Shown here: positions 1 through 46,932 of the stretch, one piece after another
Layout of the letters: the number at the start of each line of letters is the position of its first letter
How positions within the stretch are numbered: position 1 is the stretch's first letter
The notes under the pieces: model-generated
Seen by the model: the letters and a program-made list of their open reading frames with translations, nothing else
Databases searched by the model: none
Told to the model about the DNA's origin: nothing
Assembly (NCBI GenBank): GCA_963971535.1
Contig: OZ020594.1
Location: 116,719,127-116,783,126 of the forward strand
From: Notolepis coatsorum
Taxonomy: Eukaryota > Chordata > Actinopteri > Aulopiformes > Paralepididae
Direction of reading: 5' to 3'
DNA: 64,000 nt
Made by a program: the position numbers and the translations under genes

Positions 1-861
<861 letters not shown>

Positions 862-1782
862 TAGTGCTGTCAGGTGATTAAAAAAAGGTATCTAATTAAT
901 TACAGGATTTGTAATTAATTAATCTAATTAATCACATTTTAATCGCATAACCATTTTATGCCTGATATTCTATAATCATATTTCAAATTGCATGTGTCCG
1001 GATGGCAGAATTCAGTACTGTATCTACAAAACCTTCTGTTTAATCATCTTCCATTTATTCATTTGCTTAGATTTTTCAGGTCTGGTCAATTCTAGCATGG
1101 CGTTATTCAGTCAAAGAAAAAAAATGTATTGATATTCTCTCATTTGGTTCATTACAATTTACTCAAGCCTAGTAACACAGACACAGTATTTCTGACACTG
1201 GGAATACATTCCATGAGATCCATAGATGTCCCTAGAATCAGATAGTGTGGGGGAAAATTATTTATCTATGATATTACATTTATCATGTATTTCATTTCAG
1301 AGCAGAAACTCCCTGTGTCTATACCAAAACAAGTACAAAGGTTTGCTTATGAAAACAGTAGAACCATATGAAATCCGTTTTATTATTTTCCAAATTCCAT
1401 AAAATCTTTTCCCAAATTCCGTTTTTTCCGTTTTAATATTTCAGAATTCTGTATTTTGCTTTTTATGCTCATTTTACCATCAGAAATAGTGTCTAATAAG
1501 TGGGAATGAATAAATGTCCACAATTGAATAAGATATAACAGTCCATTTAATGTTTTTAAGTGCTGCAAATACAGTTACATTTTACACTATTTTTCAAATA
1601 ATATTGTGACAAAATAAAACTACACATTTCAAGTGTAAACAATAGATACAGCTAGCTACTACTGACATTATCACAATGACAATGTCAGTAGCCTAGCTAT
1701 ATATATTATATTGTGATGAAATATAGTAATGCATAATTTAGGCACCTTTAGTTTAGTTTATTTCGTTTATAAAGGACAGTGT

Positions 1783-2275
1783 ATAATGACAATCGTTTGC
1801 ATAAAACAAATGGATGGGTGCACTAGATTTAGCTAGAAGCTATCATTTCCATCTATAGTCCTATGTACTGTAACGTTACATAGCTATTTAAGTTTATTTA
1901 GATTATAAAGGGCAGTGTATAATGACAATCGTTTGCATAAAACAAATGGATGGGTGCACTAGATTTAGCTAGAAGCTATCATTTCCATCTATAGTCCTAT
2001 GTACTGTAACGTTACATAGCTATTTAAGTTTATTTAGATTATAAAGGGCAGTGTATAATGACAATCGTTTGCATTAAACAAATGGATGGGTGCACTAGAT
2101 TTAGCTAGAAGCTATCATTTCCATCTATAGTCCTATGTACTGTAACGTTACATAGCTATTTAAGTTTATTTAGATTATAAAGGGCAGTGTATAATGACAA
2201 TCGTTTGCATTAAACAAATGGATGGGTGCACTAGATTTAGCTAGAAGCTATCATGTCCTAACGTTACATAGCCAT
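1783..2275 (+). repeat. Tandem array, 136-bp unit, about 3.7 copies
   Basis: The phrase acaatcgtttgcat recurs every 136 bp (1790, 1926, 2062, 2198). Units differ by only a few bases. Each contains the palindromic core TAACGTTA near its end. The last unit has an internal deletion. It lies inside the hAT at 862-3333. Confidence 0.95.
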
Positions 2276-2673
2276 TTAATCACAATAGTGTCGCAAGTGT
2301 TTTTGCGTGTCCAGTCCACGGAACGTTGACAGAATTAGCAAAACACCTTATCGCCGGAGGCATAAAAGTCATTAGGATACTGCTCTGCTCTGAATTTAGG
2401 GCTTATTGCGGAATTTCTTAGCTTCTTGACGACGTTAAGACTGAAGCAGCAAGACGCTTGAGCACTGCTGTGTTGTGTGTAACCCGCTCTAGCGTCCCCG
2501 CCTCCCCGGTCGCGTGTGCACCAAACGTTCCACCCAAAAACGGAATTTCAGTCCAGATTAGGCGAAATTCTGCAATATTCCACGTTTTGCAGTTGATTCC
2601 ATTTTTATTGGTTAATTCCGCAATTCCGTCCGATTCCGTGAACGCGGATTTCATATGGCTCTAGCAAACAGCC

Positions 2674-3107
2674 ACTGTTTGCACTAGCTGACTGGCCCCC
2701 GTTCCTGTACACTTCTGTACCCCCCCCCCCTACCCCTCCCCAATATCACACAACTATTACTTATTACTTGTACCCCCCCTGTATCCCCCCTTGTGTAAAC
2801 ATCACCCCACTGCTTTTCCAGAATAGAACTCCCTTAACGTGCATGTATCGGATTGGATGATAACACGATCATGAATCTTATTGGATAAATACACTGTCAT
2901 GTCATCCGTGCCCCTTTTCCTCCTATATAAGCTGCATTAAAATGTATTGTAATTGTCCAACTCCGGACAGAGCATTTTGCGTGCTCTGCCTCGTGACTTG
3001 TCACCTTGTATTCTGCAGAATATAATAATAAATAACTTTTTGACTGTGAAGACTCTGTATCCTGATGCCATATTATTTCGTTTGAGACGAATTTCAATTG
3101 CCATTAC
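2674..3107 (+). mobile_element. LTR-like block (possible solo LTR)
   Basis: Runs from TGTTTGCACT to ...CCATTACA, with a TATA-like CTATATAAG near 2924 and a poly(A) signal region AATAATAAATAA near 3022, spaced as in a retroviral-type LTR. Pyrimidine-rich tract at 2715-2800. No convincing TSD and no partner LTR in the window, so the boundaries are tentative. Confidence 0.4.
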
Positions 3108-3399
3108 AATACCAAGAACATGCAAATGGTCCATATTAAAAACAAAAATTCTGTAAATGTGTATTCTACATTCTTATGGAGTGAATGAGATTAAAAAAAT
3201 ATATAGAAAAAAAGAAAAAAACTATTGAATTTTTTTTTTTTTATAAATGTTGAGTTAATTTTCATAACGCGATAATTTGCTGAATTGCTGAGTAATTAAT
3301 TAATGTAATTAACGGGATAAACTGACAGCCATACTTTTTAATAATCCTAAATTAATAATAATAAAAAGAGTTTAAATCAAGCATTTTTAAGGGCTTTAG

Positions 3400-3483
3400 A
3401 GGCAATGTCAAAATATCGTGATGTACATCGTGTATCGTGACAAAATATCGTGATATCATTTAGAGGCCATATCGCCCAGCCCT
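3400..3483. mobile_element. hAT terminus (gcccagccct type), partner end unclear
   Basis: The sequence ends in atatcgcccagccct, the reverse complement of the common fish hAT end (a)gggctgggcgatat, after several copies of 'atatcgtgat'. Related sequence at 740-810 suggests the older hAT into which the 862-3333 element inserted, but no left TSD was found. Confidence 0.55.
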
Positions 3484-3845
3484 AGTTTCAACTCACCACC
3501 CCCGCATCATATTGTAGTCTAGTCTGTCTTCAAACTTCCACTCCTCTCAAAACTTTCTTTTTCATCTGAGAAAGGCGCGGTGGGTTTTCTTTTTAGCGGC
3601 AGGCTTACTCCTTCCATATGGTTCCACTTCCACATATTTGTAATTGTAACCCATTTAATAATAATAATATTTACATTTATTTGTATTTAATTTTATTATT
3701 TTTTAAACAAACACATAAACAAACATGACAACATAAAATTAGATATACAAGCATTAATTAACAGTGCACATCCAATGAAATCACCATTTAGATAAATGTC
3801 TTATACAAGATATACACCTAATACCTGCTATCTAATACCCTACAC
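3484..3845. other. Unassigned AT-rich sequence
   Basis: I see no gene, no terminal repeats and no tandem structure here apart from short (AAT)n at ~3658. Confidence 0.5.
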
Positions 3846-4174
3846 CAGTGGTGCCCAACCAGTCGATCGCGATCGACAGGTAGATCGCGGGCTGATTTCA
3901 AGTAGATATTGATTAATAAAATGTGATTATAAAAAAAAAAAAAAAAAAAAAAAAATTGCTAAATCAACTCTTCCTCTCCTTGTTAACTACAACAAGCAAT
4001 GCTGTTTGTTATTTAAGATGAGGTCGGACTCGACACTGACAGATTTGTGTTCATTATGCTGCTTTTATAAAGCCTCAAATGACGGCTTACAATATACAAT
4101 TTTGGCTGGTAGCTCTCGGGCTAGGTGGTAAATAAAAAAGTAGATCTTGGTTCAAAAAAGGTTGGCCACCCCTG
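3846..4174. mobile_element. hAT MITE (Buster-like ends), TSD CCCTACAC
   Basis: Starts CAGTGGTGCCCAACC and ends GGTTGGCCACCCCTG, an inverted repeat, with CCCTACAC duplicated at 3838-3845 and 4175-4182. It is 329 bp with an internal poly(A) run. Its centre (caatgctgtttgttatttaaga..ggtcggactcg) is shared with the 3' non-coding part of the hAT at 38879-42176 (near 41370-41870). Confidence 0.92.
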
Positions 4175-4270
4175 CCCTACACACATATGCTCTCGCTCGC
4201 TCGCTCCCCCCCCCGGACCCCCCATTGGATAATCCATCCATTATCATTCGCTCCTAACCAGGCTCTACCA

Positions 4271-5098
4271 TTATATGCTAGCTTTTATTCTCTCCACGAC
4301 CACCACTTCTAACCACATTGTCATTTTGGATTCATTGAGACCCAAAATTCTTGCTGTAGATATTTCTAGATAAATCACCTCGAGATATGTAAAAATCCAG
4401 ACCTTCCGGCACATTTTTTCCGGTTGAAACCATTGTGATGCTATCAGCTTTTTAGCCGCTGTGATACCAGATAAAACCAATCTCTTTAGCTGTATAGGTA
4501 CTGCACACTCAAAAACATCATTCAGCAGTAATACAGAGGGGTGTACAGGTATATTCAGAGTTAAGAGATTTGATAATTGCTGGGTCACTTCTTTCCAGAA
4601 CATCTTAACTGGTGGGCAGTCCCAGTACATGTGCATAAATGTCCCCTCGTCCCCATTTGTACATAAGGAGCATTTGGAGTCTTGTTTAAGACCCATTCTG
4701 TTCAGTCTTATAGGAGTCAAGTATGTCCTATGAATATAGTTAAGATTGATTTGTTGATGGTCCGGGTTCCTTGATGCAAGTCGAACATTTGCCCAGGCTT
4801 CTTGCCAATCAAAATCTATTTCCAGGTCTGGTATATCCCTCCTCCAGACTGAGTCTAGGTGGAGGATTTCATACGAGGACGTTAGTAATTGATGATAAAA
4901 ATCTGATACAAAACCTCTCGATGTCTCTCTATCATAGAAGAATTTGTGGTATCTGTGGTGTACAATTGGTATCCTTAATGGAACACCGTGAGCCTTCAAA
5001 CATAACAATAACTGCGTAAAAATAATATGTGGAACTGGTGAGATTAAATTTTTTGTGTATTTCCTCATAACTACAAAAACCCTGTTTGTTGAAAACAT
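4271..5098 (-). pseudogene. L1 ORF2 C-terminal region
   Basis: A 275-codon open stretch carrying the region downstream of RT in L1 proteins, with the cysteine-rich CSLCTNGDEGTFMHMYWDC motif that is characteristic of the ORF2 C-terminus. It is open but disconnected from RT by frameshifts, so it is a relic. Confidence 0.75.
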
Positions 5099-5738
5099 CT
5101 CCTAATGTGTGTATGCCCTGCTTTTCCCATCTAGGGAATCTTATAGGTCGTTTTACAATCAGGAGTGCATTGTTATTGAATAAGGGAGTATGATTATGCC
5201 ATTTATGTGGGTTAGAATATCCGGATCGCATGAGTAATAATGGGGCCAAATTTCAGTTCGCATTGCTTAATTGATCATTTGGTGTATACTACTGTATGTC
5301 CTGCAGTCTATGTGGTGCTACTATATTTACTTCTAAATTTCTCCAGGATACTGATGCTTGGGGATCAAACCAGGTTGTCAGTGGTCTTAAAGTGTACGCC
5401 TTAAAATAGTGGAAAAAATCTGGAAATGCCATACCTCCGTCGGCTTTGTTTCTCTGTGCGGTGGATCTTTTTATACGTGGTGGTTTGTTATTCCAAATAA
5501 ATTTGTATGCGGAAGAGTGTAATTTTTTCCAGTAACCATCTGGAGGGGGTAACGGTAGCATTGAGCTGATGAAGTTGATTCTAGGTAAGACATCCATCTT
5601 AACTATTGAAACCCGTGCCTGTACTGAGTTTTTAAGATTTGACCACCTGTCAAAGTCGTATTTTATTTTATTTTGGATTTCTATGTAATTGTGCTTCACC
5701 GTTTGGCTTATGGTAGGGAATACTTCAACTCCCAAACA

Positions 5739-6161
5739 TCAAAAGTGTTTAACCATTGGTATTTCTTCTGGAAGGCGTATATTTTTTGCAGGGGCGTTAA
5801 GTGGAAGGAAAGCCGACTTTGGCCAATTTATCTTAAATCCCGATAGGTCGCCAAAGTCATCAATCAACTTGAGAAGATGAGGCATTGCGGTGTTAGGGTT
5901 TTGCATGAACAGTATTACGTCGTCCGCATATAAACTAATTTTGTTTTGTGTGCCCTTGATTACGATTGGTTCTATGAATTGGGATTGTCTTATATATTGT
6001 GCTAAAGGTTCTAATGATAAATCGAATAGTCCGGGACTAAGAGGGCAACCCTGTCTAGAAGAGCATGATACTGGAAAGATTTCGGAGGTGATTATACCTG
6101 TTGTAATCATGGCCGATGGGTCTTTGTATAATACTTTAATCATATCAATGAATCCTACAAC
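5739..6161 (-). pseudogene. L1 reverse transcriptase core (YADD)
   Basis: Encodes the RT palm: RQGCPLSPGLFDLSLEPLA then SLYADDVILF, the catalytic YADD box. The apparent N-terminal codons upstream of 6161 are antisense sequence from the inserted LINE and are not L1. Retroelement function: copying L1 RNA at the target nick. Inactive here because the frame is broken on both sides. Confidence 0.85.
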
Positions 6162-6807
6162 AAGCGGTGCAGGGGTAAGGCTAAGAGAATCATCAAGGAC
6201 TCCAGCCACCCGAACAACTGCCTCTTTGAACTGCTGCGGTCAGGCAAGCGATACCGGAGTCTTAAGGCGAGCACAGAAAGACTCAGAAGAAGCTTCTATC
6301 CCCAGGCCATCAGGCTGCTCAACGAACAATAAACACTATGCAACAACCATCAAATGCACACACACCCACACGCACACACTCACTTAAACAAACAACACAC
6401 TGCAGCACCCACTCTCCACACTTTAGATCACCTAAACACACTTTACACTTTACATTTATTGGTAAAGGATTTGCACTACAACTCGTACACCTTACTGTAA
6501 ATTGTACCTAAATTGTACCTCATCCCATTTCTGCTCTGCACTATATAGTATTGTATATTAGTACATTGCATAGAATATTGTATATTGTATGGTAACTCAG
6601 TTACTTCTATTCTGCATCGAACATTGTACATATGTCTATACTGAACACTGACCTTTTTTTTTTTTACTTCTATTTTACATGCTATACTATTTTATTTCAT
6701 ACTATCTTGTCTAGCACAGTCTCTGGAGCGTAACAGTAAGAAGCATTTTCTATAAAAGTATTCTGTACTTCTGTATGACAACTATTAAAGAAACTTGAGA
6801 AACTTGA
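6162..6807 (+). mobile_element. Rex1/CR1-group LINE 3' end, inserted in L1
   Basis: Encodes only a LINE C-terminus (..LLRSGKRYRSLRAS..SFYPQAIRLLNEQ) and a 3' UTR that ends in repeats of gaaacttga. A near-identical fragment sits at 22700-23343. Its 5' end begins at caacaagcggtgcagg in both. It is truncated by incomplete reverse transcription, as usual for LINEs. Clade assignment is by the C-terminal motif only. Confidence 0.7.
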
Positions 6808-7245
6808 ACTTTTCCTAACCCCATCCTTTCTAATACTGCCCATAGATACGACCATTCCAACCTATCAAAAGCTTTCATTGCATCCAGGGACAGCATCGCC
6901 TTAGGTGTGGTGTCTTCCTTGCTGGCATCTAGTGCGTGTAGTAATCGTCTTATGTTATCAGTGATCAAGCGGTTTCTTATGAAGCCAGTTTGATCCGGAT
7001 GAACTAAAGACGTCATATGCTTTTGAAGTCTGATGGCTAATACCTTAGAGTACAGTTTGATATCGGTTCCGAGGAGGCTTAAGAGTCTATAACTACCGCA
7101 CTCAGTGGGGTCTTTGTCTTTTTTAAGGAGGACTGTTATGAGTGCAATATTGTCGTTCTTATGGAAGTTCCCCTCCTTGACTGAGTATAAAATCATATTA
7201 AGTAATAGGGGTCCAATTATGTCCCAACATGATGTATAGATTACA

Positions 7246-7918
7246 TTTATATATTTAATTACCGCATATATTTATAGGGCAACCAACCTTTTTATATTTG
7301 AATATCAACATTATCTGTCCATCCTCAGTAATCCTCAGTTTACTATAATATACTCCTGACTTCATCGTCTTTCCAAACGCGCACACACACAGAGAAAGGG
7401 AGAGTGCCCCCCCCCCCCATTTCCCTTTCCTCAGTCCCCACTTTCTGCTGTTCTCTATGGCGTATCGATATGAACCGAACGTTGCTAGCTGCCCGAACCA
7501 TAGATATTATAGCTGGAGCTGTGCTTGGGGCGGAAATGAGACCCGCCACAGGATTTTCAAAATAAGAGTATCGATATGAACTATTGTTACACGCCAGGTG
7601 GCGGGCAGACCTCTCATTGTTACTCGCCAAACCTTAAATCTGCCCGCCATTGGCGCTTGGCGGGTACTTATTTTGTTCCCTGGGTATCGGTATCGGCCGA
7701 TAAGTGCCTTGTTGACTGCCGCCTATCGGCCGATAAGCTAAAATTTGCCGATGGCAGTGGCAATCCGTCAATTTGTGTTGCGTCAATCTGGTCCACACTG
7801 GTCCACAAATGAAAACAACACTAAAACCCTGCCTACGTTCTGCAAACTGTCGCAAGCATTCTGGCACTAGCTGAATCTGAATTAGATTATTCGTTCTACT
7901 CACATCATACATGTAACA
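7246..7918. other. Unassigned sequence with short palindromes
   Basis: No gene recognised. Contains a short CA run and poly-C at ~7380-7420, and the palindrome TATCGGCCGATA twice (near 7690 and 7728), a feature of some hAT subterminal regions, but no complete ends or TSD were found. Confidence 0.4.
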
Positions 7919-8264
7919 TAGGGCTGGGCGATTAATCGATATTATCGATTAATTCGAATGAATGATTTAGGACGATTTTGAAAAATTTAAATCGATGTTC
8001 AACAAAAAAAGAAAAAAAGATTTAAATTTAAATTTTATTTGTCACCTTTTATTTTACAAAAAGTGATGTTTGGTGAAAGTTAGATTTGCACTTTATTAAT
8101 CCCAATAGGGAAATTCATTCTTGTTTGATGATCAAGAGGCACCTTTTATTTGTTTTAAGTGAAGTTTGGTGAAAAAGCTAATTATTGCACTACAGTATTA
8201 ATCCCAATAGGGACATTCATCTTTGTTTGATAATTTTTTTGTGTCAAATAAAAACAAAGGTTAT

Positions 8265-9897
8265 TGTTGAAAGCTACAGGTCGCCTCTATACATCTCAAT
8301 CACCTACTCGAGATATAAACCTGCGGCCGCTCGATATCCCCCGGCGAGGTGCTAAACTCACCAAGTTCTCGAGTCAATTTACTATTTCTGTCTAGATTAC
8401 TTCAAGTCACTGGTCTTGTGATATCCAGTTGATATGAAATGTAATCATGAAGAGTTGTTAATCTCTTCTTGTTTGAAATAAACCGAATATTTTGTTTAGG
8501 AGAACTATTATATCATGTAATAAAAATAATATTATTATTATCATTATCATCATTTTACGAAAGGGCTTGTAATACTGCTCATTTGAAAGCTTGGTTGTAT
8601 TACTACTTTTTTAATAAGTATTACCACTGTACTAACACGTAATCATTGTTTGCACTCCCCGGCCTTCTTTGTCCTCCTCCTCCTCCTTCAACGGAACCGA
8701 CCGTCTGACCCTGCAGTGATTCAGACGGTCGAGGTCCCACACAAGACAGAGTCAGTCTGGACACAGAGACACCGGAACCCGCAAACAACACTCATCTACA
8801 TGCTTAGTATTTCTTATCAGTACATAGCATATACATATATAAATATATATATTTTAGCTGAAAAGCATTAACCAGTCAATTGATTCAATCTGTATTTCAT
8901 TACATAGTCACCTCAGAGGAAATCAAGGCGCGGCTGGTATTTGCTGGCAGGGATCAGTCCAAGAACTCAATGGATTATAAAAAGTCATCTTTATTTCAAT
9001 GAAGTTACAGAAAAAGACTAAATAAAAAATATCCATTACAGTTTTAAAAGATTATATAAAAACAAAACATGTCATCTGCATCTTGGTCTTCCAAGTCACA
9101 CACTGGTAAAAACTTCAAAATCTCTCAAAGAAGTCTGTAGGCACCATTCTTCTTCTCTCTCCTTCTCCGTGTAAAAATCCCCCTGTGCTCTCGCCAGTTG
9201 GCCCTTTTTATAAGGTCCGTCACGTCACGCCATCATCAGTACATAGCTCCAATCACTGTACAGTACGTGTCATATCCCTCCTTCAGTTATTTGTTACTTT
9301 GCAGTTACATATCAAATCAAGTAATTCATAAGAATACAATGCCCCTCTGACTAGAGCTCCCTCTTCTTGGCCTTGCATTCCAGCCGGTCACTTCCCTACT
9401 GCCTGGGGCCTCTTTCGTTCTGAGACGAGGACGAGGCAGACTGCCGTAATATATCTTACATAGCCCACCACATACATATACAGATATATACAGGTACAAT
9501 AGGTTACAGGTACAATACAGTACTCGGTGTACTATATTACATTAGTTTACATTACATTATAGTCATTATAGTCTGCTCTCCTCTCCTTCCTCTTCTGATT
9601 CAAGACTTCAACCAGCAACCCTTCCCGTCTGAAGGGGTTAACATTACACAGCTCTTTCTCCTCTGTCTCTGTCTCTCTCCTCTCCAGAGGCCCACATTCC
9701 GCTGGTTCACTCCCTTTTCACAGCTTTTCACAGACATTTTCTATGGAGACATTTAAAGGCTCAGTTCCATTTTTTTATAAGTAGAGCCATCATAGAGCTG
9801 TCTTTCCAGAGTTCAGTTTAAAGATTTATAATGGTCATATAGGAACGACCCAGGATGTCATTGTCAAAAAGTGTCACTTGTTCTGTGGCACTTCTCA
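8265..9897 (-). repeat. 3' LTR of the gag-only element
   Basis: Same length as 16590-18222 and no mismatch noticed by eye. In element orientation: U3 with TATA (TATAAAAAGG, ~9204-9213) preceded by a CRE-like TGACGTGACG, then a poly(A) signal AATAAA at 8990-8995, then a ~700-bp U5. A purine-rich PPT candidate (agagtggg) adjoins it at 9898-9905. Confidence 0.95.
8990..8995 (-). terminator. Poly(A) signal AATAAA in 3' LTR
   Basis: Minus-strand AATAAA about 210 bp downstream of the LTR TATA box, the expected U3-R-U5 arrangement. Confidence 0.6.
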
Positions 9898-10080
9898 CCC
9901 ACTCTGTCATTCTGGGCGGTCATTGTCCATCATCAACTGAATAATGAAGCATATAATTACATGTGAAAAATAGGTATATACGGCTATATTGGAACGACTC
10001 AGGATGTCATTGTCAAAAAGTGTCACTTGTTCTGTGGCACTTCTCACCCACTCTGTCATTCTGGGCGGTCATTTTCCATT
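9846..10080 (-). repeat. Duplicated U3 edge plus PPT region
   Basis: About 85 bp spanning the LTR edge (gatgtcattgtcaaaaagtg ... ctctgtcattctgggcgg) occurs at 9846-9926 and again at 9990-10072. The second copy lies inside the internal region, so the element carries a spare LTR-edge/PPT sequence. Confidence 0.85.
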
Positions 10081-10299
10081 GTCTTAATAGCGTCTGTACT
10101 GGGGGACGAGATGGCGATTGTGGGGTCACGTGGCTGTGACTCTCCACACCCCCTCTGCCATCTCGGTACCTTGTTACCCTGGTAGCCGGCGGGAAGACTT
10201 GCATCTGTTGTTCCCTGGCTGGACGGCTCGACAGGATAGGGGTCACGTTGTTGCTTGGTATCCGGCGGGAAGACTTGCATCTGTTGTTCCCGGCCGATG

Positions 10300-11050
10300 C
10301 ACCCAGGCTGTTGTCGTCTCGGTCATCTTGGTCATCTTGGTCATCTTGGTCATCTTGGTCGTCTTGGGGTCGCCCCCTCTGACCTCTTGGATCTCTCCCA
10401 TAGTTTGAGGTAGGTTGATTTGTCACTTCTCGGGCGACCCCCACGGGTCCCCGAGAATTGTAGCAGCAGTCCTCTATTGAAGTGTGGTTGCCCTGGTCGT
10501 GTGACCCTGTCCGTAGGCCTCGCAGGACATCACAGATACAGTCCACAGAGGACTCATTCCTTTTCTCTCTTTCAGGTCCATTCAGGGCTCTCGTCGCCCT
10601 GTAACCTGGGTCCAGGCCGATGTCTCTCTGTCCGGTCTGGGAGGTCTAGGAGGTCTGGGAGGTCTGGGAGGTCTAGATGAGGACCTTGAGGATGCTCTGG
10701 AGCTTGACCTATCGTGTGACCCTGTCCGTAGGCCTCGCAGGACATCACACATACAGTCCACAGAGGACTCATTTCTTTTCTCTCTTTCAGGTCCATTCAG
10801 GGCTCTCGTCGCCCTGTAACCTGGGTCCAGGCCGAGGTCTCTCTGTCCGGTCTGGGAGGTCTAGGAGGTCTGGGAGGTCTGGGAGGTCTAGGAGGTCTAG
10901 ATGAGGACCCTGAGGATGCTCTGGAGCTTGACCTATCCCGGTCTTCCTCCATTTCCGATTTCTGACCTGAGTCAGTATATTCCTTTTTGCCATTCGCTGC
11001 GTCGTCCGCTGACTCCGGGGGACCCCCCCCCCCCCTGTCCAAGAATGCGG
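10300..11050 (-). repeat. Diverged duplications of the Gag RS-rich segment
   Basis: Two ~180-bp copies (10500-10680 and 10725-10910) of the same sequence, the second preceded on the minus strand by codons for EYTDSGQKSEMEEDRDRSSS RASS, which parallels EYTDLNQDSGMEGDRDRSSS RASS of the main ORF (13290-13420). Short units (ggtctggga and tcatcttgg) have expanded in both. This is copied gag sequence in the 3' non-coding part, not an independent gene. Confidence 0.75.
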
Positions 11051-11261
11051 CACTGGTTCAGGTTTTGTCCCTTTACCAGCGCACCTTTACCAGCGCACAT
11101 TGTTCACAGGCCTTTCGGACTGTTATCGCTCTTTGTTTGGCTTTATGTATGAGAATGTTGTTAGTTCTCAGGTATACCAACATCCTCCTGCTTCCGGCAT
11201 GTCCAAGGTTATCATATACCTGTCCGATCATGTGAGTAGCCTCGTCCTGTTAGCAATGGCT

Positions 11262-11467
11262 AGTTAGCCTGCTATTCGCTCCTATTCGCAATGGCTATTT
11301 CAGCCTGCTCGCAATGGCTATTCAGCCTGCTATTCGCAATGGCTATTTCAGCCTGCTATTCGCAATGGCTATTTCAGCCTGCTATTCGCAATGGCTATTT
11401 CAGCCTGCTATTCGCAATGGCTATTTCAGCCTGCTATTCGCAATGGCTATTTCAGCCTGCTATTCAC
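11262..11467 (-). repeat. Tandem array, 26-bp unit, ~8 copies
   Basis: Unit tattcgcaatggctatttca plus gcctgc repeated with few changes, inside the 3' non-coding region of the LTR element. Open frames through it are repeat artefacts. Confidence 0.95.
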
Positions 11468-12198
11468 AAAGTAGAGTTTTTTTCTACTTAAGTTCTGACT
11501 TTAAGTAAGCATTTAGTTACTTCAAGTTCAAGTGACTTTAGGGCTCCCTAGCCCTATTAGTCGCGAGTAAACGCCACTTCAAGTGGTTTCTTATGAACCC
11601 TCTCTTGTTCCTGATAGATTTTTTACCTCTTAGGCTGTCTGCTGCGCTTTGCAGACCTCTACGTCACTCATTGTTCCAGATCTCGAGCACTTAGGAGGAG
11701 TCTTGGTTGGAGAGGATTGCTTGCTGATAAGATCACACTTGAGTAAGGTTTTAACTCAAATCTGTAATAAATTTTACTCCAGAGGCCCCTGACCGCAGTT
11801 ATTTCAGTTCATATTCTTTCGGCTTTTGATACCTATTCAATTAGCATAAAGCCCAACTCACGAATGTTCTAAGCCCCAGAACCTCCAATCCGTTTTGACA
11901 GACCTATAAACCAGTGACTCGGCCGCCCAAGCATCACAGCGTCCTGTATGCTGAAGCTTCCGAGTCCCCACAAATCTGATAGGCCCGTCGGATATAGAGA
12001 CCCTGATGCTCGCTCTGTCCCCCCGCGTCAAGGTGCTAAGCTTGATGAGAGTTTGCAGAGTCTCAATTTTTATCCATAGGCGCTGGTGAGTGTACATCTC
12101 ACGCAGCTGATATGGTTGGTACAGGTGCTAACCTACCAGATGGTAGCTGTCAGGAAATCCCCTTTGCATGAAATAGATTACAAATTCTTTCGTCCTCT
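11468..12198 (-). other. Non-coding 3' internal region of the LTR element
   Basis: No reverse transcriptase, integrase or envelope motif seen in any frame. Contains no recognisable RNA gene. It lies immediately after the Gag-like stop codon. Confidence 0.6.
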
Positions 12199-14634
12199 CT
12201 ACTCTGGTTTAGAGAAAAGACGGACATCTTTACAGTATTTGTGTTGAGAAAGCATTTTGACTTGGTCATAGAGCATGCATTCCGTCCGTAACTGGTCTCG
12301 GGACCATGCTGCGCATTTGGCTGCCAGACGGTTACCACCTGGTACACCGATGAATAGCTTTTCAAGCAGTAAGCCTGATCTTTGCCTAGGCGTTCCACGT
12401 ATGACTGATTCTGCTGCAACAGTGAGAGACAAGCTCCCGTCTCGCACCTGTGGGATTAGTTTCTCCACCATATTTTCCCCTGGATCTTGACCGGGGATTC
12501 TTACTTCCATTTCCATCATTTGGGCCATTGAAGCCCCTTCGGGGACCTCCAGTCCTTTGAGGTGTCTCAAAATGCGAGCGGCCTCCGGGTCATCATAGAG
12601 AGGTGACCCATGGAAAATCTGAGCACACTTATGGATATAAGCAGCCTGGGTCTCCCCTCGAAGCATTTCTGGGGCCAGTTTTTTGAGCACTTGGGTTTTG
12701 CTTAACAATTCTTGTGCTTTGTTGCTTTCTCCATATTGGGTGCTGTCACGCAGACTCCTGCCTGTATGTGAACTCTTTCCTCTCGGTCGGTAAATGTCTC
12801 CGGGAGATTGGGCTAGTATGGAGTGAGGGCTCACTTCCGGTCGGTGTTCCTCTGTGCTGTGTCTCAGGGCTCGGATTGGGCTTATGGACGGGGCCTCGTT
12901 CAACCAGTTTCTTTCTCTCTTGGCTATTTCAGCCATGGCCCTGTCTAGCTTGTACACCTGTTCACGTAGTATGTCATAGCCTGCATGTAAGTGTGCATGC
13001 TTGTATGGTTCTGTTACCCCAGGGTGAGACAACACTTTTTCTGCCACGGGTGACCGGGCTAAGGCCTGAGCCGTTCCCCATCTCACGGGATATGCTGGCA
13101 TAATATCCCCTGTTTTCTTTCCTTCCAAGTCTCCTTCACTCTCTTCGGAGACGTCCTCCAATCCTGAGCTCCAGGTCAAGCCCGAGGGTGACTGAAAGGT
13201 GGTGCCTTTCAGAGTAGGCCCCTTGCCTATAGGTCTCAGTTTGACCGGTTTCGCTCTCTTGTTTCGAGGTCTAGGAGGTTCGCCCCTCGGGTACCGAACT
13301 CTCTCCCTAGATCTTGATCGAGATGAAGACTTGGAGGATGCTCTGGAGCTTGACCTATCCCGGTCTCCCTCCATTCCTGAGTCCTGATTTAGGTCAGTAT
13401 ACTCCTGTTCGCTACTTGCTGGGTCGTCCCCTGAGTCCGGGGGACGGCCTAGAAGTCTATGGATACTCCTGGCCTGAGATCGCGCAGGTTCCGCCTTTTC
13501 AGGTTCGAACGGTACTGTCGGTCTCCTGGGTGTGGATGATCTCCCTCTCTCCGCTGCTCGGGAGGAGTTCTGGGAGTTGGACCTTTCTTTCCTGGGTACG
13601 GGTCCCGATCCCTTAGGGTTCGGAGGGGGAGTGAGAGGTACCAATGCAGGCTCATCGTCCTCGTCTTCCTCACCCTCCCCGGCTCTATCCACGGCCAGGG
13701 TTATTGACTCATGGTCCCTAGGTTCCATCATGAGACGGATCTCCGTGTGCCCTGCACTCCTTAGGCTTGAGATCGCGCTGATTACAGCTTTCCCCAACCA
13801 TATGCCTCTTTGGCCATATCCTCGAGACCTGCCCCACATCAGGTTTATGGCTAGTCGGTAGGGCATGTCCTTAGTACCGTGGCCAGCATAGATTTCCCTT
13901 TTCTGCAGTAGTTCCTTTATACGGGACACCAGTCTGTCCCAGTTTATGTGTGAGGACTCTATCTCCTTGTATTGGTCTTGACTTAGTGTCACATGGACAA
14001 TTTTCTCCGCGTGAAACACCTCATAATCACACTCTGTGATTACTGCCTTGCCTGGTTTCAGGGGCTTTTTGGTCCTTTTTTCCATTACCTGTTTCCTCAG
14101 GTTTCGGTAGTAAGAGCCTCCTGCCGTTACCATGCTTGTTTCCCATCTACCATAGTTCGTCAATGACGGTCCAGTGAAGGTGAGGATTGACCATGGTGTA
14201 TCAGAGTTATCGGTCCAGACTGAGTGGTTAGTGACTGTTATGTTTGGTGATTGTCTGTGAGACCTTGTAGATGTCACTCTCACCCCTGAGTGTTCACCAC
14301 GGGGAGATATATAGGTTGCTCTCGCTTGCCTCACTTCCTCATGACCACGTGGTCCTGGGCTTATGCACTGCAGGGAGTGATCTCGCTCCTGCAGCTCCTT
14401 CAGCTCCTCCTCAAACTCCTCCTTCTCCAGACGAGACTGCAGCAGCTCCTGTTTGGTGCTTCGCAGTTCGTCTCTGGTGGTGTGGAACTGCTCCATCCAG
14501 TGGGCACTCTCGTCCCTGCAGTCCTCTAGCTGCTGCTGCAGGGAGCGCACCGAGGTGTTCACACGCTGCCGCTCTGCCTCGATACCTGCCAGAGACTGGG
14601 ACACCTGCTCCATGCTGCTCCTCAGCCTCTCCAT
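12199..14634 (-). CDS. Gag-like protein with cingulin-derived coiled-coil N-terminus (811 aa)
   Basis: Intact ORF, the only coding region of the LTR element. Residues 1-89 are a coiled coil that matches the rod of vertebrate cingulin (e.g. ..[21 protein letters not shown]..). Residues ~90-320 contain a compact, tryptophan- and arginine-rich region ([29 protein letters not shown]) that may be matrix-like. An acidic stretch ([10 protein letters not shown]) follows, then a long Pro/Arg/Ser-rich region with [19 protein letters not shown]. The last ~120 residues are helix-rich and capsid-like ([19 protein letters not shown]). There is no zinc knuckle. The Gag call is inferred from position after the primer site and overall make-up; I do not recognise a named family. 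The first Met may not be the natural start because cingulin-like codons continue upstream in another frame. Confidence 0.8.
   Translation of the reverse strand: [811 protein letters not shown]
13280..13450 (-). other. RS-rich segment of the Gag-like ORF
   Basis: Encodes [20 protein letters not shown] followed by alternating Ser/Arg ([20 protein letters not shown]). RS-rich stretches often bind RNA, so it may replace the missing zinc knuckle in packaging; this is inference. It is the source of the copies at 10300-11050. Confidence 0.6.
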
Positions 14635-14770
14635 GTCGGTGCTGTACTGCTCCCTGAGGGTCTCGGATCTCCCGGTCGTGCGTGGCCACCTCGTCCTTCA
14701 GCGCCCCCTTCAGGGCCGTGAGCTCCCGCTCCCGCTGCCTCAGCGTCTCCTGGAGCTGGAGGTTGTCATC
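14368..14770 (-). pseudogene. Captured cingulin (CGN) rod fragment
   Basis: On the minus strand 14770-14640 encodes [20 protein letters not shown] and ALKDEVATHDREIRD, then a one-base shift, then from about 14655 [18 protein letters not shown] and onward to [15 protein letters not shown] (14368). The order and spacing correspond to one continuous stretch of the cingulin coiled-coil rod as I remember it ([36 protein letters not shown]). Cingulin is a cytoplasmic tight-junction protein. No intron interrupts the ~400 bp, which suggests capture from spliced RNA, though a single-exon origin is not excluded. The last two thirds are in frame with the Gag-like ORF. Paracingulin is the alternative source. 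Confidence 0.82.
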
Positions 14771-14799
14771 CAGTTAGCATTCAGTTCACTCCTGGCTTG

Positions 14800-15190
14800 T
14801 TGGCGGATGGCGAGCTAGTTAGCTTCCGTCTGGCTAAAGCCAGCTCATGGGTGTTAGCACTGGCTTGTTAGCCGATGTAGTGCTAGTTAGCTTCCGTCTG
14901 GCCAGCTCATGGGTCTTCCGTCTGGCTAGGGCCAGCTCATGGGTGTTAGCACTGGCTTGTTAGCCGATGTAGTGCTAGTTAGCTTCCGTCTGGCCAGCTC
15001 ATGGGTCTTCCGTCTGGCTAGGGCCAGCTCATGGGTGTTAGCACTGGCTTGTTAGCCGATGTAGTGCTAGTTAGCTTCCGTCTGGCTACGGCCAGCTCCT
15101 GGGTCTTCCGTCTAGCCAGCTCATGGGTCGCACCGTCTGGCTAGCTCATGGGTCTTAGCACTGGCTTGTTAGCCGATGTAGTGCTAGTTA
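14800..15190 (-). repeat. Tandem array, 92-bp unit, ~4 copies
   Basis: The phrase gtgttagcactggcttgtta starts at 14851, 14943 and 15035, and a variant copy at 15152. Units share tccgtctgg(c)cagctcatggg. It lies in the leader of the LTR element between the 81/82-bp array and the cingulin segment. Confidence 0.9.
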
Positions 15191-15204
15191 GCTTGCAGTT
15201 CTGT

Positions 15205-16315
15205 GAATTCGTTTTGGCTCGCTTCACATCCACACTCCGCTCCTTACAGGGTGTCTCTGGGCTAGGGAGCCCTCGCCTTTCTGTGTACGGCCGTTTTGGC
15301 TCGCTTCACATCCACACTCCGCTCCTTACAGGGTGTCTCTGGGCTAGGGAGCCCTCGCCTTTCTGTGAACGGCCGTTTTGGCTCGCTTCACATCCACACT
15401 CCGCTCCTTACAGGGTGTCTCTGGGCTAGGGAGCCCTCGCCTTTCTGTGAACGGCCGTTTTGGCTCGCTTCACATCCACACTCCGCTCCTTACAGGGTGT
15501 CTCTGGGCTAGGGAGCCCTCGCCTTTCTGTGAACGGCCGTTTTGGCTCGCTTCACATCCACACTCCGCTCCTTACAGGGTGTCTCTGGGCTAGGGAGCCC
15601 TCGCCTTTCTGTGAACGGCCGTTTTGGCTCGCTTCACATCCACACTCCGCTCATACAAAGTGTCTCTGGGCTAGGGAGCCCTCGCCTTTCTGTGAACGGC
15701 CGTTTTGGCTCGCTTCACATCCACACTCCGCTCATACAAAGTGTCTCTGGGCTAGGGAGCCCTCGCCTTTCTGTGAACGGCCGTTTTGGCTCGCTTCACA
15801 TCCACACTCCGCTCATACAAAGTGTCTCTGGGCTAGGGAGCCCTCGCCTTTCTGTGAACGGCCGTTTTGGCTCGCTTCACATCCACACTCCGCTCATACA
15901 AAGTGTCTCTGGGCTAGGGAGCCCTCGCCTTTCTGTGAACGGCCGTTTTGGCTCGCTTCACATCCACACTCCGCTCATACAAAGTGTCTCTGGGCTAGGG
16001 AGCCCTCGCCTTTCTGTGAACGGCCGTTTTGGCTCGCTTCACATCCACACTCCGCTCATACAAAGTGTCTCTGGGCTAGGGAGCCCTCGCCTTTCTGTGA
16101 ACGGCCGTTTTGGCTCGCTTCACATCCACACTCCGCTCATACAAAGTGTCTCTGGGCTAGGGAGCCCTCGCCTTTCTGTGAACGGCCGTTTTGGCTCGCT
16201 TCACATCCACACTCCGCTCATACAAAGTGTCTCTGGGCTAGGGAGCCCTCGCCTTTCTGTGAACGGCCGTTTTGGCTCGCTTCACATCCACACTCCGCTC
16301 ATACAAAGTGTCTCT
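15205..16315 (-). repeat. Tandem array, 82/81-bp unit, 14 copies, two subtypes
   Basis: The marker gttttggctcgcttcacatc occurs at 15211, 15293, 15375, 15457, 15539, 15621 (82-bp spacing) and then 15702 to 16269 at 81-bp spacing. The left units read ctccttacagggtgtctctg, the right units ctcatacaaagtgtctctg. Because 82 is not a multiple of 3, frames drift and the open frames through it are artefacts. In element orientation it is in the 5' leader, after the primer site. Confidence 0.97.
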
Positions 16316-16571
16316 CTAAACTGCCAGACATTTTAGAGAGAGGGTTTTCTTTACCCCTTTTTTTTTTTTTTTTTAATCCAATTTTGCGGGCTCAACCGCT
16401 CCACCAGCAATGCCCCCACTATGCAGATGCCTTTAATTTGCCACTGCTCTCCATCGAGGGCCCTACAGATCAATATCCTTTGACTGGTGTATTCTAAAAC
16501 TCGGTTCTCCGTTTTTTTTTTTTCAATATTTCTAGTTTATTTTATTTTGGCTGTTATCTTACCGATCTCAG

Positions 16572-16589
16572 CCCTAACCAGGGACGCCA
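16572..16589 (-). promoter_or_regulatory. Primer-binding site, tRNA-Asn type
   Basis: Directly next to the LTR edge (U5 ends ...TTCAACA) the minus strand reads TGGCGTCCCTGGTTAGGG. The first 12 bases are the complement of the tRNA-Asn 3' end (CCAGGGACG plus CCA). It fixes element polarity and the LTR boundary. Confidence 0.8.
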
Positions 16590-18222
16590 TGTTGAAAGCT
16601 ACAGGTCGCCTCTATACATCTCAATCACCTACTCGAGATATAAACCTGCGGCCGCTCGATATCCCCCGGCGAGGTGCTAAACTCACCAAGTTCTCGAGTC
16701 AATTTACTATTTCTGTCTAGATTACTTCAAGTCACTGGTCTTGTGATATCCAGTTGATATGAAATGTAATCATGAAGAGTTGTTAATCTCTTCTTGTTTG
16801 AAATAAACCGAATATTTTGTTTAGGAGAACTATTATATCATGTAATAAAAATAATATTATTATTATCATTATCATCATTTTACGAAAGGGCTTGTAATAC
16901 TGCTCATTTGAAAGCTTGGTTGTATTACTACTTTTTTAATAAGTATTACCACTGTACTAACACGTAATCATTGTTTGCACTCCCCGGCCTTCTTTGTCCT
17001 CCTCCTCCTCCTTCAACGGAACCGACCGTCTGACCCTGCAGTGATTCAGACGGTCGAGGTCCCACACAAGACAGAGTCAGTCTGGACACAGAGACACCGG
17101 AACCCGCAAACAACACTCATCTACATGCTTAGTATTTCTTATCAGTACATAGCATATACATATATAAATATATATATTTTAGCTGAAAAGCATTAACCAG
17201 TCAATTGATTCAATCTGTATTTCATTACATAGTCACCTCAGAGGAAATCAAGGCGCGGCTGGTATTTGCTGGCAGGGATCAGTCCAAGAACTCAATGGAT
17301 TATAAAAAGTCATCTTTATTTCAATGAAGTTACAGAAAAAGACTAAATAAAAAATATCCATTACAGTTTTAAAAGATTATATAAAAACAAAACATGTCAT
17401 CTGCATCTTGGTCTTCCAAGTCACACACTGGTAAAAACTTCAAAATCTCTCAAAGAAGTCTGTAGGCACCATTCTTCTTCTCTCTCCTTCTCCGTGTAAA
17501 AATCCCCCTGTGCTCTCGCCAGTTGGCCCTTTTTATAAGGTCCGTCACGTCACGCCATCATCAGTACATAGCTCCAATCACTGTACAGTACGTGTCATAT
17601 CCCTCCTTCAGTTATTTGTTACTTTGCAGTTACATATCAAATCAAGTAATTCATAAGAATACAATGCCCCTCTGACTAGAGCTCCCTCTTCTTGGCCTTG
17701 CATTCCAGCCGGTCACTTCCCTACTGCCTGGGGCCTCTTTCGTTCTGAGACGAGGACGAGGCAGACTGCCGTAATATATCTTACATAGCCCACCACATAC
17801 ATATACAGATATATACAGGTACAATAGGTTACAGGTACAATACAGTACTCGGTGTACTATATTACATTAGTTTACATTACATTATAGTCATTATAGTCTG
17901 CTCTCCTCTCCTTCCTCTTCTGATTCAAGACTTCAACCAGCAACCCTTCCCGTCTGAAGGGGTTAACATTACACAGCTCTTTCTCCTCTGTCTCTGTCTC
18001 TCTCCTCTCCAGAGGCCCACATTCCGCTGGTTCACTCCCTTTTCACAGCTTTTCACAGACATTTTCTATGGAGACATTTAAAGGCTCAGTTCCATTTTTT
18101 TATAAGTAGAGCCATCATAGAGCTGTCTTTCCAGAGTTCAGTTTAAAGATTTATAATGGTCATATAGGAACGACCCAGGATGTCATTGTCAAAAAGTGTC
18201 ACTTGTTCTGTGGCACTTCTCA
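16590..18222 (-). repeat. 5' LTR of the gag-only element
   Basis: Offset by exactly 8,325 bp from the left LTR over its entire 1,633-bp length with no indel. It supplies the promoter for leftward transcription. Confidence 0.95.
17529..17538 (-). promoter_or_regulatory. LTR TATA box with upstream CRE-like site
   Basis: Minus-strand TATAAAAAGG, preceded ~10 bp upstream by TGACGTGACG (17545-17554 region). A strong pol II core promoter by appearance; activity not shown. Confidence 0.6.
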
Positions 18223-18342
18223 GTTATTTGAATGATTTCCTTGGCGTTTCTAGTTTTCAAGAAAAAGAAATCGATTAAAATCGTAAATCGGATTAAAAAA
18301 AAAATCTGGGATTTTATTTTTAGGCCATATCGCCCAGCCCTA

Positions 18343-23794: not shown

Positions 23795-26237
23795 TACGAC
23801 GAAGAAACGACGTAAACTCCATGATCAAAAGTGCAAAAAAGAATTTCATCAATGACAAAACTGAGGAAAACAAAAACAAACCACGTGAACTTTGGAAATT
23901 ACTCAATAATCAACTAGGATGCAGTAAAAAACTTAAAACCAGATTCTCAAACATAAACGTAACATAAAAACGGACAACACGCTCATCACAGAGCTGGATG
24001 TAGCCAATTACTTAAACATTTTCTTCACAAACATAGCCACAACACTGGTAAACAAACTACCCTCCCACTCAGGGCTTTATGGGGTAGAACACATAGTAGC
24101 TTACTACAAAAACCTAGGGGTCAGCAAGGACGACTTCAAGCTGGAAATGGTAACAACAGATGAGGTACTCAATAAACTGAGCGCCCTCCAACCTAACAAG
24201 GCCACTGGCCATGACAACATCCCCTCCAAATTCCTCAGAGACTCAGCAGCCGCCATCACCCCAGTCATCACACACATAATAAACCTCTCCATAAAACAGG
24301 GACACGTCCCCAAGGACTTCAAAATTGCGAGGGTGACCCCTCTGCACAAAAAGGGCAGCAAATTAGACCCAGGCAACTACCGCCCTGTTTCTATTCTCAC
24401 CTCCATCTCGAAAGTCATGGAAAAAATAGTCTACGAACAGGTCGAAAAGTACCTAGCGGAAATAAATCTAATCTACGAATTCCAATCTGGCTTCAGAACA
24501 TCCCACTCCACTGACACATGCCTTCTCTATTTGAATGACCACATCAAACAAGAGGTGGACGCAGGCAAATACTGCGGCATGGTCATGCTGGACCTACAAA
24601 AGGCCTTCGACACTGTCAATCACTCCATTCTGATTGACAAGCTAAAAGCAATTGGTTTTGATAGTCTATCAGTGAGCTGGATGCAATCCTACCTTGAGGG
24701 GAGGGAACAGATGGTGGAGGTAAACGGTACCCTACCCCCCCCCCCCCCTCACAGTGAGCTGTGGTGTTCCACAAGGAAGCATAATAGGACCGCTACTGTT
24801 CCTAATTTATGCAAATGACATGTCGTCAGCTTGTGACTGCAACTTGTTCCTGTTTGCGGACGACTCAGCCCTGCTGGTCTCTGACAAGAACAAGTTACAG
24901 GTTGAAAAAACCCTCAGCTCGGAACTAGGCAAAATCTGCATATGGCTCGCGGATAACAAACTATCATTACACATGGGCAAAACAGAGTCCATTCTCTTCG
25001 GTTCAAATAACAAACTCAGCAAGACCGACGACTTCTCAGTTACAGTGGGTGACAATATTGTCACAAGGAAAGATGAAATTACCTACCTGGGTTCCATCCT
25101 AGAGGCTAATCTCTCCTGTGACAAAATGGCATCCAGTGTAATAAAAAAAGTCAACCAACAAACTCGATTCTTGTACCGGATCTCCTCTCTGGTAAACAAG
25201 AATACCCTGAAGACTCTGGCAGGAGCACTCATTCAAGGGTACTACGACTATGCTTGCACCTCATGGTACCAAAGCACCTCAAAGGCGCTAAAAACAAAAT
25301 TACAAACATCTCAAAACAAACTGGTCAGACTACTGCTTGACCTTACTCCTAGAACCCACCTCACCCCTGCCCACTTTGACAACCTAGGATGGCTTAGAGT
25401 AGACGACAGAGTACAGCAACTTGCAATGGGCCTGGTCTACAAGATACACTACACGACCAAGGTACCCATGTACATGTCAAAATACTTCCCAAAGGTCAGT
25501 GAATACCACGATCACAACACCAGAGGGAGCGCCACAAATCATGTTAAACCCAGATTCGGCTCAAATAAGGGACTAAACACGGTTCGCAATTATGCCACAT
25601 CAATGTGGAACGCCCTACCCAAAGCTGTAAAGGAATGTGGATCACTACCCACTTTCAAAACCACTCTCAAGGGACACCTACGGGAGACTGCAATTCAAAA
25701 CTGGCCCCTGTAAATGTCCTAACCCAACCCCCTCCAATGTACAGTCATTTACCTAGTATGGTTGTCAATAGTCCAATGTACAATTTTGCTTGTTTGTACA
25801 GTGTCTCCCCCCCCCCCCCTCAATGTACAGTTTTGCTTGTTTATACAGTGTTTTCCCCCCCCCCCCCCCTAATGTAAATTACCCAGTATGGTTGACAATA
25901 TCCCAATGTACCCAACCCCCCCCCATACAACCTCCTCCAATGTACAGTTTCTACGTCAAATGTATATACTCCCTTTTCTTGACTCCTTCTGTATCACAAA
26001 CAGTACTGTATTTGCAAATCTGGTATGTCATAAATGTATAGATGTAGCAGTACTGAATATCTGTATGTCATGTATGTCATATATGTCCTGATGAATTGAA
26101 AATGGGGGACCCTGATGTAAACAAGACGAAAGTCTTTCTCTGGTCTGCATCCACTTAACAATTGTGTGTATTGAGCTGTACTGTATTGTACCCATTCTGC
26201 AATCTGTTAATAAAGTTTTCAATCAATCAATCAATCA
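23795..26237 (+). mobile_element. L2-type LINE, 5'-truncated, with (CAAT)n tail
   Basis: Begins inside the region before RT (RRNDVNSMIKSAKKNFIND), continues through RT, and ends in a caatcaatcaatcaat tail at 26217-26235. The 3' UTR (25714-26216) is full of C-runs with imperfect ~60-bp repeats (aatgtacagttttgcttgtt). A fuller copy of the same family is 43537-48075. Confidence 0.92.
24147..25713 (+). pseudogene. L2 reverse transcriptase (frameshifted)
   Basis: Two overlapping open pieces (24147-24818 and 24754-25713) join at a run of 14 C's at 24737, where the frame slips. Motifs in order: NKATGHDNIPSKFLRD, HKKGSKLDPGNYRPVSIL, LDLQKAFDTVNHSIL, SCGVPQGSIIGPLLFLIY, and the catalytic LFADDSALLVSD near 24855, then the C-terminal domain ending RNYATSMWNALPKAVKE. 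An earlier frameshift separates 23776-23967. Target-primed reverse transcription in life; dead here. Confidence 0.92.
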
Positions 26238-27043: not shown

Positions 27044-27415
27044 TAGGGCGGGCCATACTTTTTTTTTTTTGGAAAATCAATCGAGTGGGGTGTCTAAAAT
27101 ACGTGTTTTCTTGTGGGGAATTCAAATATGGGATTATTTTTCTAATCGGATAACTCCTACCTACATTGTTTTGGATTTCAAAATGGCCGATTTGACCATT
27201 TTTCACCCCATGGCCATACATGGATGCCAACATGAATCTGAAGGAAATCATAACATGCAAGGTGTCTAAATGATGTGTTTCTTAATGGGGAATTCAAATA
27301 TGAGTTCATTTTTGGGATAGAATAACTCTAACCTACATAATTTTGGATTTCAAAATGGCCGATTTTACCATTTTTCACCCCTTGGCCATACATGGATGCC
27401 AACATGAATCTGAAC
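27044..27415 (+). repeat. Left TIR arm, two sub-blocks
   Basis: Block 1 is 27044-27260, block 2 is 27261-27415. Both contain tttggatttcaaaatggccg and ttttcaccccntggccatac. Block 2 is cut by the start of the coding region. Confidence 0.9.
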
Positions 27416-29744: not shown

Positions 29745-30255
29745 AATGGGTTCAAATGGTAAAATCAGCCATTTTGAAATCCAAGATTATGCAGGTTATA
29801 TTTATCCTATCCCAAAAATGACCTCATATTTGAATTCCCCATTAAGAAACACATCATTTAGACATATTGCATGTTAGGAATTCCTTCAGATTCATGTTAT
29901 CATCCATGTATGGCCAAGGGGTGAAAAATGGTAAAATCGGCCATTTTGAAATCCAAAATGATGTAGGTTAGAGTTATCCTATCCCAAAAATGAACTCATA
30001 TTTGAATTCCCCATTAAGAAACACATCATTTAGACACCTTGCATGTTAGGATTTCCTTAAGATTCATGTTGGCATCCATGTATGGCCAAGGGGTGAAAAA
30101 TGGTCAAATCGGCCATTTTGAAATCCAAAACAATGTAGGTAGGAGTTATCCGATTGTAAAAATAATCCCATATTTGAATTCCCCACAAAAAAACACGTAT
30201 TTTAGACACCCCACTCGATTGATTTTCCAAAAAAAATAAAGTATGGCCCGCCCTA
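29745..30255 (-). repeat. Right TIR arm, three sub-blocks
   Basis: Reading inward: block 1 30039-30255, block 2 ~29867-30038, block 3 ~29745-29866. Block spacing is ~172 bp (cacatcatttagaca at 29850 and 30022). Block 3 has no counterpart at the left end. Confidence 0.88.
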
Positions 30256-30435: not shown

Positions 30436-31316
30436 TCACAGAACGCACCAGACCTTGTTTGTCTGGAAAGACCTCCAGAACCCTGCCAAGTGGCCAGGGC
30501 CCACAAGGAGCTGAAGAGTCCATGATGACCACAATATCACCAGCTGCCAAACTCCTTTTCCTCCGGTTCCACTTTTGCCTCTCTTGAAGCAAGGGCAAGT
30601 ACTCACGTACCCATCTTTTCCAAAAAAAGATCTGAAAGATACTGGACTTGCCACCATCGTCTTCTTACATACTGGTCATGTGGATCGAACACTCCAGGTG
30701 GCAAAGCTGGTTTACCCTTCAAGAAAAAAAGATGGTTCGGTGTAAGTGGCTCCAGGTCGTTGGGATCATCCGAGAGTTTGGTTATTGGACGGTCATTCAA
30801 AATGGCCTCCACTTCACAGAACACTGTATGATGTCCATCATCATCCAACCTCTGCTGACGTAGGACAGAACTGAGAACCCTTCTCACCAGGCGGATCATC
30901 CATTCCCAGACGCCACCGTGATGTGAACCTGCTGGTGGATTAAAGCTCCAACGGATTCCAACTTGTGCCAGAACTCCATGAATCTTGTCTTGATTCAAAA
31001 CGGCCAGAGCCTCCTTCAGTTTTCGTTCTGACCCAATGAAATTGGTACCATTATCGGACCGTAAGTGCGCCACTTGTCCTCTCCTGCTGATAAAACGCCT
31101 CAGAGCATTGATGCATGCGTCTGTGTCCAATGACACCGCTACCTCCAGATGGATGGCCCTGCTTGCCATACAGGTAAATATGACTCCGTACCTCTTACAG
31201 GTTGATCTTCCTTTCTTCACTTCGACTGGTCCAAAGTAATCTACCCCTGTGTTGGTAAAAGGTGGTAGGTCAGGAAGGATTCTGTCTGCTGGAAGATCTG
31301 CCATCTTTTGCTCCAC
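30436..31316 (-). pseudogene. BEL/Pao integrase
   Basis: Starts in the linker EQKMADLPADRILPDLPPFT, then the DDE core: VDYFGPVEVK, LRSDNGTNF (second Asp), and the region up to the catalytic Glu in NPPAGSHHGGVWEWMIRLVR. It ends with EVEAILNDRPITKLSDDP and WQVQYLSDLFLEK. A frameshift near 30610 moves the C-terminus (LAAGDIVVIMDSSAPCGPWP; PLGRVLEVFPDKQGLVRSV) into another frame. The zinc-binding HHCC domain upstream is lost. Confidence 0.9.
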
Positions 31317-46854: not shown

Positions 46855-46932
46855 CTGTTTGATTTCAGCCAGTTTAGGTCTCAGGCTTTTTGTATTAAGA
46901 TGAAATATGTGTAGTCCATCAGATTGATGTCG

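Follow-up and report, generated by a model that had tools for sequence, protein, structure and literature searches.

A recent LTR element of Notolepis coatsorum, taken as non-autonomous and gag-only, very probably took a coding stretch of the host cingulin gene into its 5' leader by way of RNA. The window, the 64,000-nucleotide stretch of DNA analysed here, encodes on its minus strand, at 14773-14383, 130 residues of the fish cingulin rod. These residues lie between the 5' LTR and a Gag-like open reading frame (ORF), and part of the cingulin reading runs without a stop into Gag.

The complete LTR element occupies 8265-18222 on the minus strand and holds the cingulin stretch. Its direct LTRs with TG...CA ends and its 5-bp target-site duplication are hallmarks of LTR retrotransposons and endogenous retroviruses. 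Outside the cingulin and Gag-like region, its parts are, from the 5' end of the element:

18223..18227, no strand assigned: target-site duplication GTTAT, right copy, in the flank sequence
16590..18222, minus strand: 5' LTR with TG...CA ends, 1633 of 1633 bases the same as in the other LTR
16572..16589, minus strand: putative primer-binding site, TGGCGTCCCTGG..., directly after the 5' LTR, read from the sequence
15210..16315, minus strand: 81-82 bp tandem repeat array in the leader, 13.6 copies, 99% matches
14823..15128, minus strand: 92-bp tandem repeats in the leader, found by repeat detection
10896..11023, minus strand: second copy of part of the SR-rich segment of Gag, 82% identical to 13318-13445
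9986..10079, minus strand: duplicate of the first 61 bp of the 3' LTR together with the 33 bp that precede them, 97% identical to 9837-9930
8265..9897, minus strand: 3' LTR, 1,633 bp, identical to the 5' LTR
8260..8264, no strand assigned: target-site duplication GTTAT, left copy, in the flank sequence

Because the two LTRs are 100% identical and GTTAT stands at both ends, the insertion is recent; the intact LTRs and target-site duplication implied in the first-pass annotation are borne out. From the 5' LTR onwards, the order is primer-binding site, 81-82 bp array, 92-bp repeats, cingulin and Gag-like ORF. The putative primer-binding site, TGGCGTCCCTGG, may resemble the 3' end of tRNA-Asn. The 81-82 bp array consists of two unit variants and contains 23 ATGs in the orientation of the element. 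Beyond the end of the Gag-like ORF at 12199, 2.3 kb of sequence holds repeats, the second LTR-start copy and the second gag segment. The duplicated LTR start (9986-10079 versus 9837-9930) is likely a scar of reverse transcription. The Gag-segment copy at 10896-11023 lies 3' of gag, as though from a diverged relative of the element, and a 215-bp tandem duplication at 10497-10937 adjoins it.

All ten listed minus-strand ORFs of at least 80 codons inside the element were compared with Pfam, and no pol family (reverse transcriptase, RNase H, integrase or protease) was found in them. The element is taken as non-autonomous because these ORFs lack such a family, which agrees with its earlier description as gag-only.

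The cingulin stretch and the reading that follows it are laid out below; P0002 is the cingulin of Centroberyx, and P0121 is a protein related to the Gag-like ORF.

14747..14773, minus strand: cingulin piece 1a, LDDNLQLQE, equivalent to residues 412-420 of P0002
14666..14746, minus strand: cingulin piece 1b, TLRQRERE...ATHDREI, outside the Gag frame
14665, minus strand: single base between two reading frames (frame shift); the tblastn pieces end at 14666 and 14664
14383..14664, minus strand: cingulin piece 2, ETLREQ...KELQER (94 residues), read in the same frame as the Gag-like ORF
14086..14382, minus strand: open linker of 99 codons from cingulin to the conserved Gag start, with no relative found and unlike P0121
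12199..14085, minus strand: uninterrupted Gag-like protein starting at Met205, with conservation in P0121

When five full-length cingulins are aligned to the window, their matches fall in two frames, at 14758-14666 (with LDDN up to 14773) and at 14664-14383. Over 14752-14666, 28 of 29 residues are identical to the Arapaima cingulin P0117, while LDDNLQLQE is identical to P0002 at eight of nine positions and to P0083 at all nine. The only good match of these five proteins to the window is 14773-14383; outside it they find weak coiled-coil repeats only, so that a complete cingulin gene with head, rod and tail is absent, as is any second copy of the stretch within the 64,000 nucleotides. The upstream border lies near 14773, and the bases just before it, by eye, clearly resemble neither side. 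At the other end, similarity stops at KELQER, and from DHSLQ (14382 downwards) the reading departs from cingulin.

Between LDDNLQLQE and TLRQRERE, 73 cingulin codons are missing (P0002 residues 421-493), a call that depends on the nine-residue match LDDNLQLQE. The gap is in frame relative to cingulin, and the spacing of P0002, with its 73 further residues, is common to most other cingulins listed. Piece 2 corresponds to ORF residues 12-105 and has its first Met at 14634. It accounts for the 94 of 130 codons that share the Gag-like frame, the other 36 being split off by the shift at 14665.

These borders refine the first-pass annotation, which had placed a cingulin fragment of about 130 codons at 14368-14770, fused in frame to the Gag-like ORF. 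Its three cingulin motifs are all present on the minus strand in the order it gave, and the 130 rod residues are real. The single open frame is not: cingulin reads up to ...ATHDREI, then falls out of frame and meets a stop, so the fragment is split at 14665 and also has the 73-codon gap relative to cingulin. The in-frame fusion accordingly holds for 94 codons and fails for 36.

The identity of the stretch comes from a search with ORF residues 8-112 (105 residues) against 5.77 billion proteins, which scored 758 candidates and gave 254 matches at E<=0.001, the best at E 9.2e-42. The best 120 of these 254 range from E 9.2e-42 to 5.4e-37, with 81-91% identity and 68-94% query coverage; 109 carry cingulin as their name, the remaining 11 being hypothetical, unnamed or domain-only, and among these 120 no name, as printed in cut form, is that of another gene. 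Where organisms are shown among the matches listed, they are ray-finned fishes. Coiled-coil families in Pfam reach E 1.2e-4 at best (the best 25 of 33 all fall under the cut-offs) and the best PDB chain reaches E 0.0073, values that come from much smaller libraries than that of the protein search. On this comparison of sequences the match is specific to cingulin, and chance is excluded because the best E-value was obtained in so large a database. The proposed cingulin origin is therefore upheld, and the generic coiled coil that would have spoken against it does not appear as best match. The heptad pattern of ORF residues 8-112 exceeds that of 2000 of 2000 shuffles, and that of the linker does not exceed all 2000.

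Piece 2 was compared with 119 of the 120 cingulins, P0092 being dropped as the motif was not found in it. Identities range from 78 to 87 of 94 residues, the best match being Centroberyx P0002 (87/94), and the closest cingulins by identity are those of Centroberyx, Lampris and Myripristis; a tree of the cingulins leaves the source of piece 2 without resolution. Mean identity to piece 2 is 0.860, versus 0.876 among the 119 cingulins themselves. All 27 columns that are invariant across the 119 are kept, a result that has a probability of 0.085 if the seven differences from P0002 are random and is not significant alone. Eleven residues differ from the commonest one, and two of these (L and A) are absent from all 119 cingulins. 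This level of similarity fits either a capture that came late relative to the diversification of these fishes or constraint on the sequence after it was captured.

The Gag-like ORF has 832 codons (12199-14697, minus strand) and is open from piece 2 to 12199. Its fold match to Gag is weak. The sole Gag relative found is P0121 (767 residues, ENA, no name), in a search that scored only the 8000 candidates sharing most words and so may have missed relatives with the extension. P0121 matches ORF residues 469-816 at 48% identity. Its first 150 residues score 200 against ORF residues 190-345, compared with a maximum of 56 in 1000 shuffles; the alignment starts at P0121 residue 3 and ORF residue 209, placing the first Met of P0121 at most two residues from Met205. 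The same 150 residues match neither ORF residues 1-112 (452 of 1000 shuffles are as good) nor ORF residues 113-205 (925 of 1000). P0121 also has a long basic C-terminal tail, whereas the Gag-like protein here does not. A protein search with ORF residues 113-335 returned zero matches and missed P0121 too, so relatives sharing the linker could escape it.

Judged from this alignment, the native Gag start is most likely Met205 (14085). The cingulin coil is probably an added N-terminal extension of the Gag-like protein, because P0121 starts near Met205 and lacks the cingulin part. The coil could instead have proved an ordinary part of Gag shared by relatives, and in P0121, the one relative found, it is not present.

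Whether the extension is made is a separate matter. The same capture may be inert, the cingulin being leader sequence only and Gag being made from Met205, as in P0121; we lean slightly towards this reading, a leaning that concerns function, not origin, and is not additive with our confidence in the capture itself. P0121 begins within two residues of Met205 and has no extension, Met205 is flanked by G at both -3 and +4, and the frame shift and 73-codon gap look unselected. Between the LTR and 14635 the leader also carries 34 ATGs, of which the 81-82 bp array supplies 23. Such upstream ATGs would hinder scanning to either start unless the leader is spliced or bypassed. On the other side, the frame is open through cingulin and linker: when the linker and Met205 codon (300 bases, the last 100 codons) are base-shuffled 20,000 times, 0.7% of the shuffles are free of stops, although the ORF tested had drawn attention by its openness in the first place. 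The other two frames of the linker stretch have 9 and 6 stops. This open frame speaks for translation of the linker. ATGs preceded by a purine at -3 and followed by G at +4 occur at 14634, 14613, 14133 and 14085, and Met22 (14634) has the same G at -3 and G at +4 as Met205. With good starts at both, either the extended or the Met205-started form may be made.

Translation from Met22 would add 84 cingulin residues and the 99-residue linker. For this form AlphaFold, run on the single sequence, predicts a continuous helix over residues 2-87 counted from Met22, with block means of 82-97 over the first 80 residues and little confidence past the helix. A tolerated passenger is the more likely role for the extension, and we hold it to be reasonably probable. 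A selected oligomerisation module is doubtful. Somewhat more doubtful still is the specific proposal that a Met22-started Gag with its 84-residue cingulin helix would gain self-association or junction-protein binding and be kept by selection.

For the capture itself, we infer a route through an RNA intermediate. Cingulin mRNA would have been packaged with, or joined to, the RNA of the element, and reverse transcriptase would have copied it through template switching in an order that is likewise reconstructed. Switches at both ends would bring in an internal stretch of cingulin, and an internal jump during copying would drop 73 codons in frame. The Gag-like ORF would thereby have gained an N-terminal extension that is optional: one long cingulin helix from 14634, beside the probable native start at 14085. 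The LTR-start copy and the 82% gag segment are possibly other scars of template switching.

Copying through RNA is favoured because the stretch is internal, carries an in-frame gap and crosses the junction of TKQ and ELLQ. Two of the 121 proteins scanned, the predicted gene builds P0119 and P0120, miss a single E in each of the motifs TKQ(E)LLQ and TQS(E)LTQ, as can happen where exons meet; this hint, from two predicted gene models among 121 proteins, is an indirect sign that the captured stretch may lack introns. The captured stretch itself reads across TKQELLQ without a break. For human cingulin, a gene of 28 exons and a 5142-nt mRNA are reported (PMC2636810).

An insertion at the DNA level, in which an older element received either genomic cingulin DNA or a retrocopy of cingulin made by a LINE, is improbable. 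ORFs for a LINE-type endonuclease and reverse transcriptase do lie in the same window, and such machinery has therefore been active at some time in this genome. A LINE-made retrocopy, however, is at odds with the absence of the cingulin 3' end and of poly(A): similarity stops at 14383, still within the rod, and from there the frame runs on into Gag. A piece of genomic DNA is at odds with a stretch that runs through the likely exon border between TKQ and ELLQ. An assembly chimera joining cingulin sequence to the LTR element is far less probable again; the neighbouring 81-bp repeat array is the kind of site where assemblies err, but an in-frame loss of 73 codons together with an in-frame run into Gag would be rare for a chance join. 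Coiled coils of many families weakly resemble the piece, but a chance or convergent coil without a tie to cingulin has a negligible probability and is refuted by the best E-value of 9.2e-42 and 87 of 94 cingulin identities, compared with E 1.2e-4 at best for another family.

The remainder of the window contains other mobile-element genes, at 23937-25713 (plus strand), 30603-31388 (minus), 40039-41094 (plus) and 44010-46932 (minus). They comprise fragments of reverse transcriptase, an integrase core that narrowly misses its cut-off and a hAT dimerisation domain, and also include the LINE-type endonuclease and reverse transcriptase. A 624-codon frame at 27341-29215 (plus strand) has no Pfam match, and 172-bp tandem repeats lie near both its ends (27089-27414 and 29754-30210); by eye, their consensus units look like mutual reverse complements. 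At 57457-58069, a 41-bp unit is repeated in 15 copies with 97% matches.

Capture of a host coding stretch through RNA would place this element among known systems, since host-gene capture by LTR elements is an established process. Maize Bs1 is likewise an LTR element carrying host gene segments, none full-length, and differs in being from a plant and in holding segments of three host enzyme genes (PMC13317346). The element here is from a fish and carries part of a single coiled-coil gene, which lies 5' of the Gag-like ORF and continues into it in frame. In zebrafish, according to a survey, stretches within LTR ends have been wholly replaced by cellular genes (PMC8672886). Crocodilian endogenous retroviruses are vertebrate LTR elements with captured host mRNAs (KIT-ligand, nectin3); their nectin3 protein spans the length of the gene, was taken up at the expense of env, and is present in several copies with signs of purifying selection (PMC4299795). 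The Notolepis element instead has an internal fragment joined to Gag, and one copy is seen.

Acutely transforming retroviruses make Gag-onc fusions, in which Gag and host cDNA form one reading frame. In those fusions the host sequence usually comes after Gag and derives from a signalling gene, whereas the cingulin stretch stands before Gag and encodes a structural coil. Compared with fish cingulin (CGN) itself, the rod segment is 81-91% identical and lacks 73 codons inside the part kept. As in transduced host genes of the Bs1 and CrocERV type, host coding sequence lies inside intact LTRs. A limited literature search found no report of cingulin in an LTR element. What sets this case apart within a known process is that its LTRs are identical and its captured frame stays open into Gag.

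The element offers a young and concrete case of such capture, with LTRs that do not differ at a single position, a target-site duplication and a captured frame that runs into Gag. Two questions can be put to it: with what frequency captured coils are translated together with Gag, and by what steps template switching builds new gene fusions in fish genomes. Should further copies prove to carry the segment, the element would also test whether a retroelement can gain an assembly module from its host.
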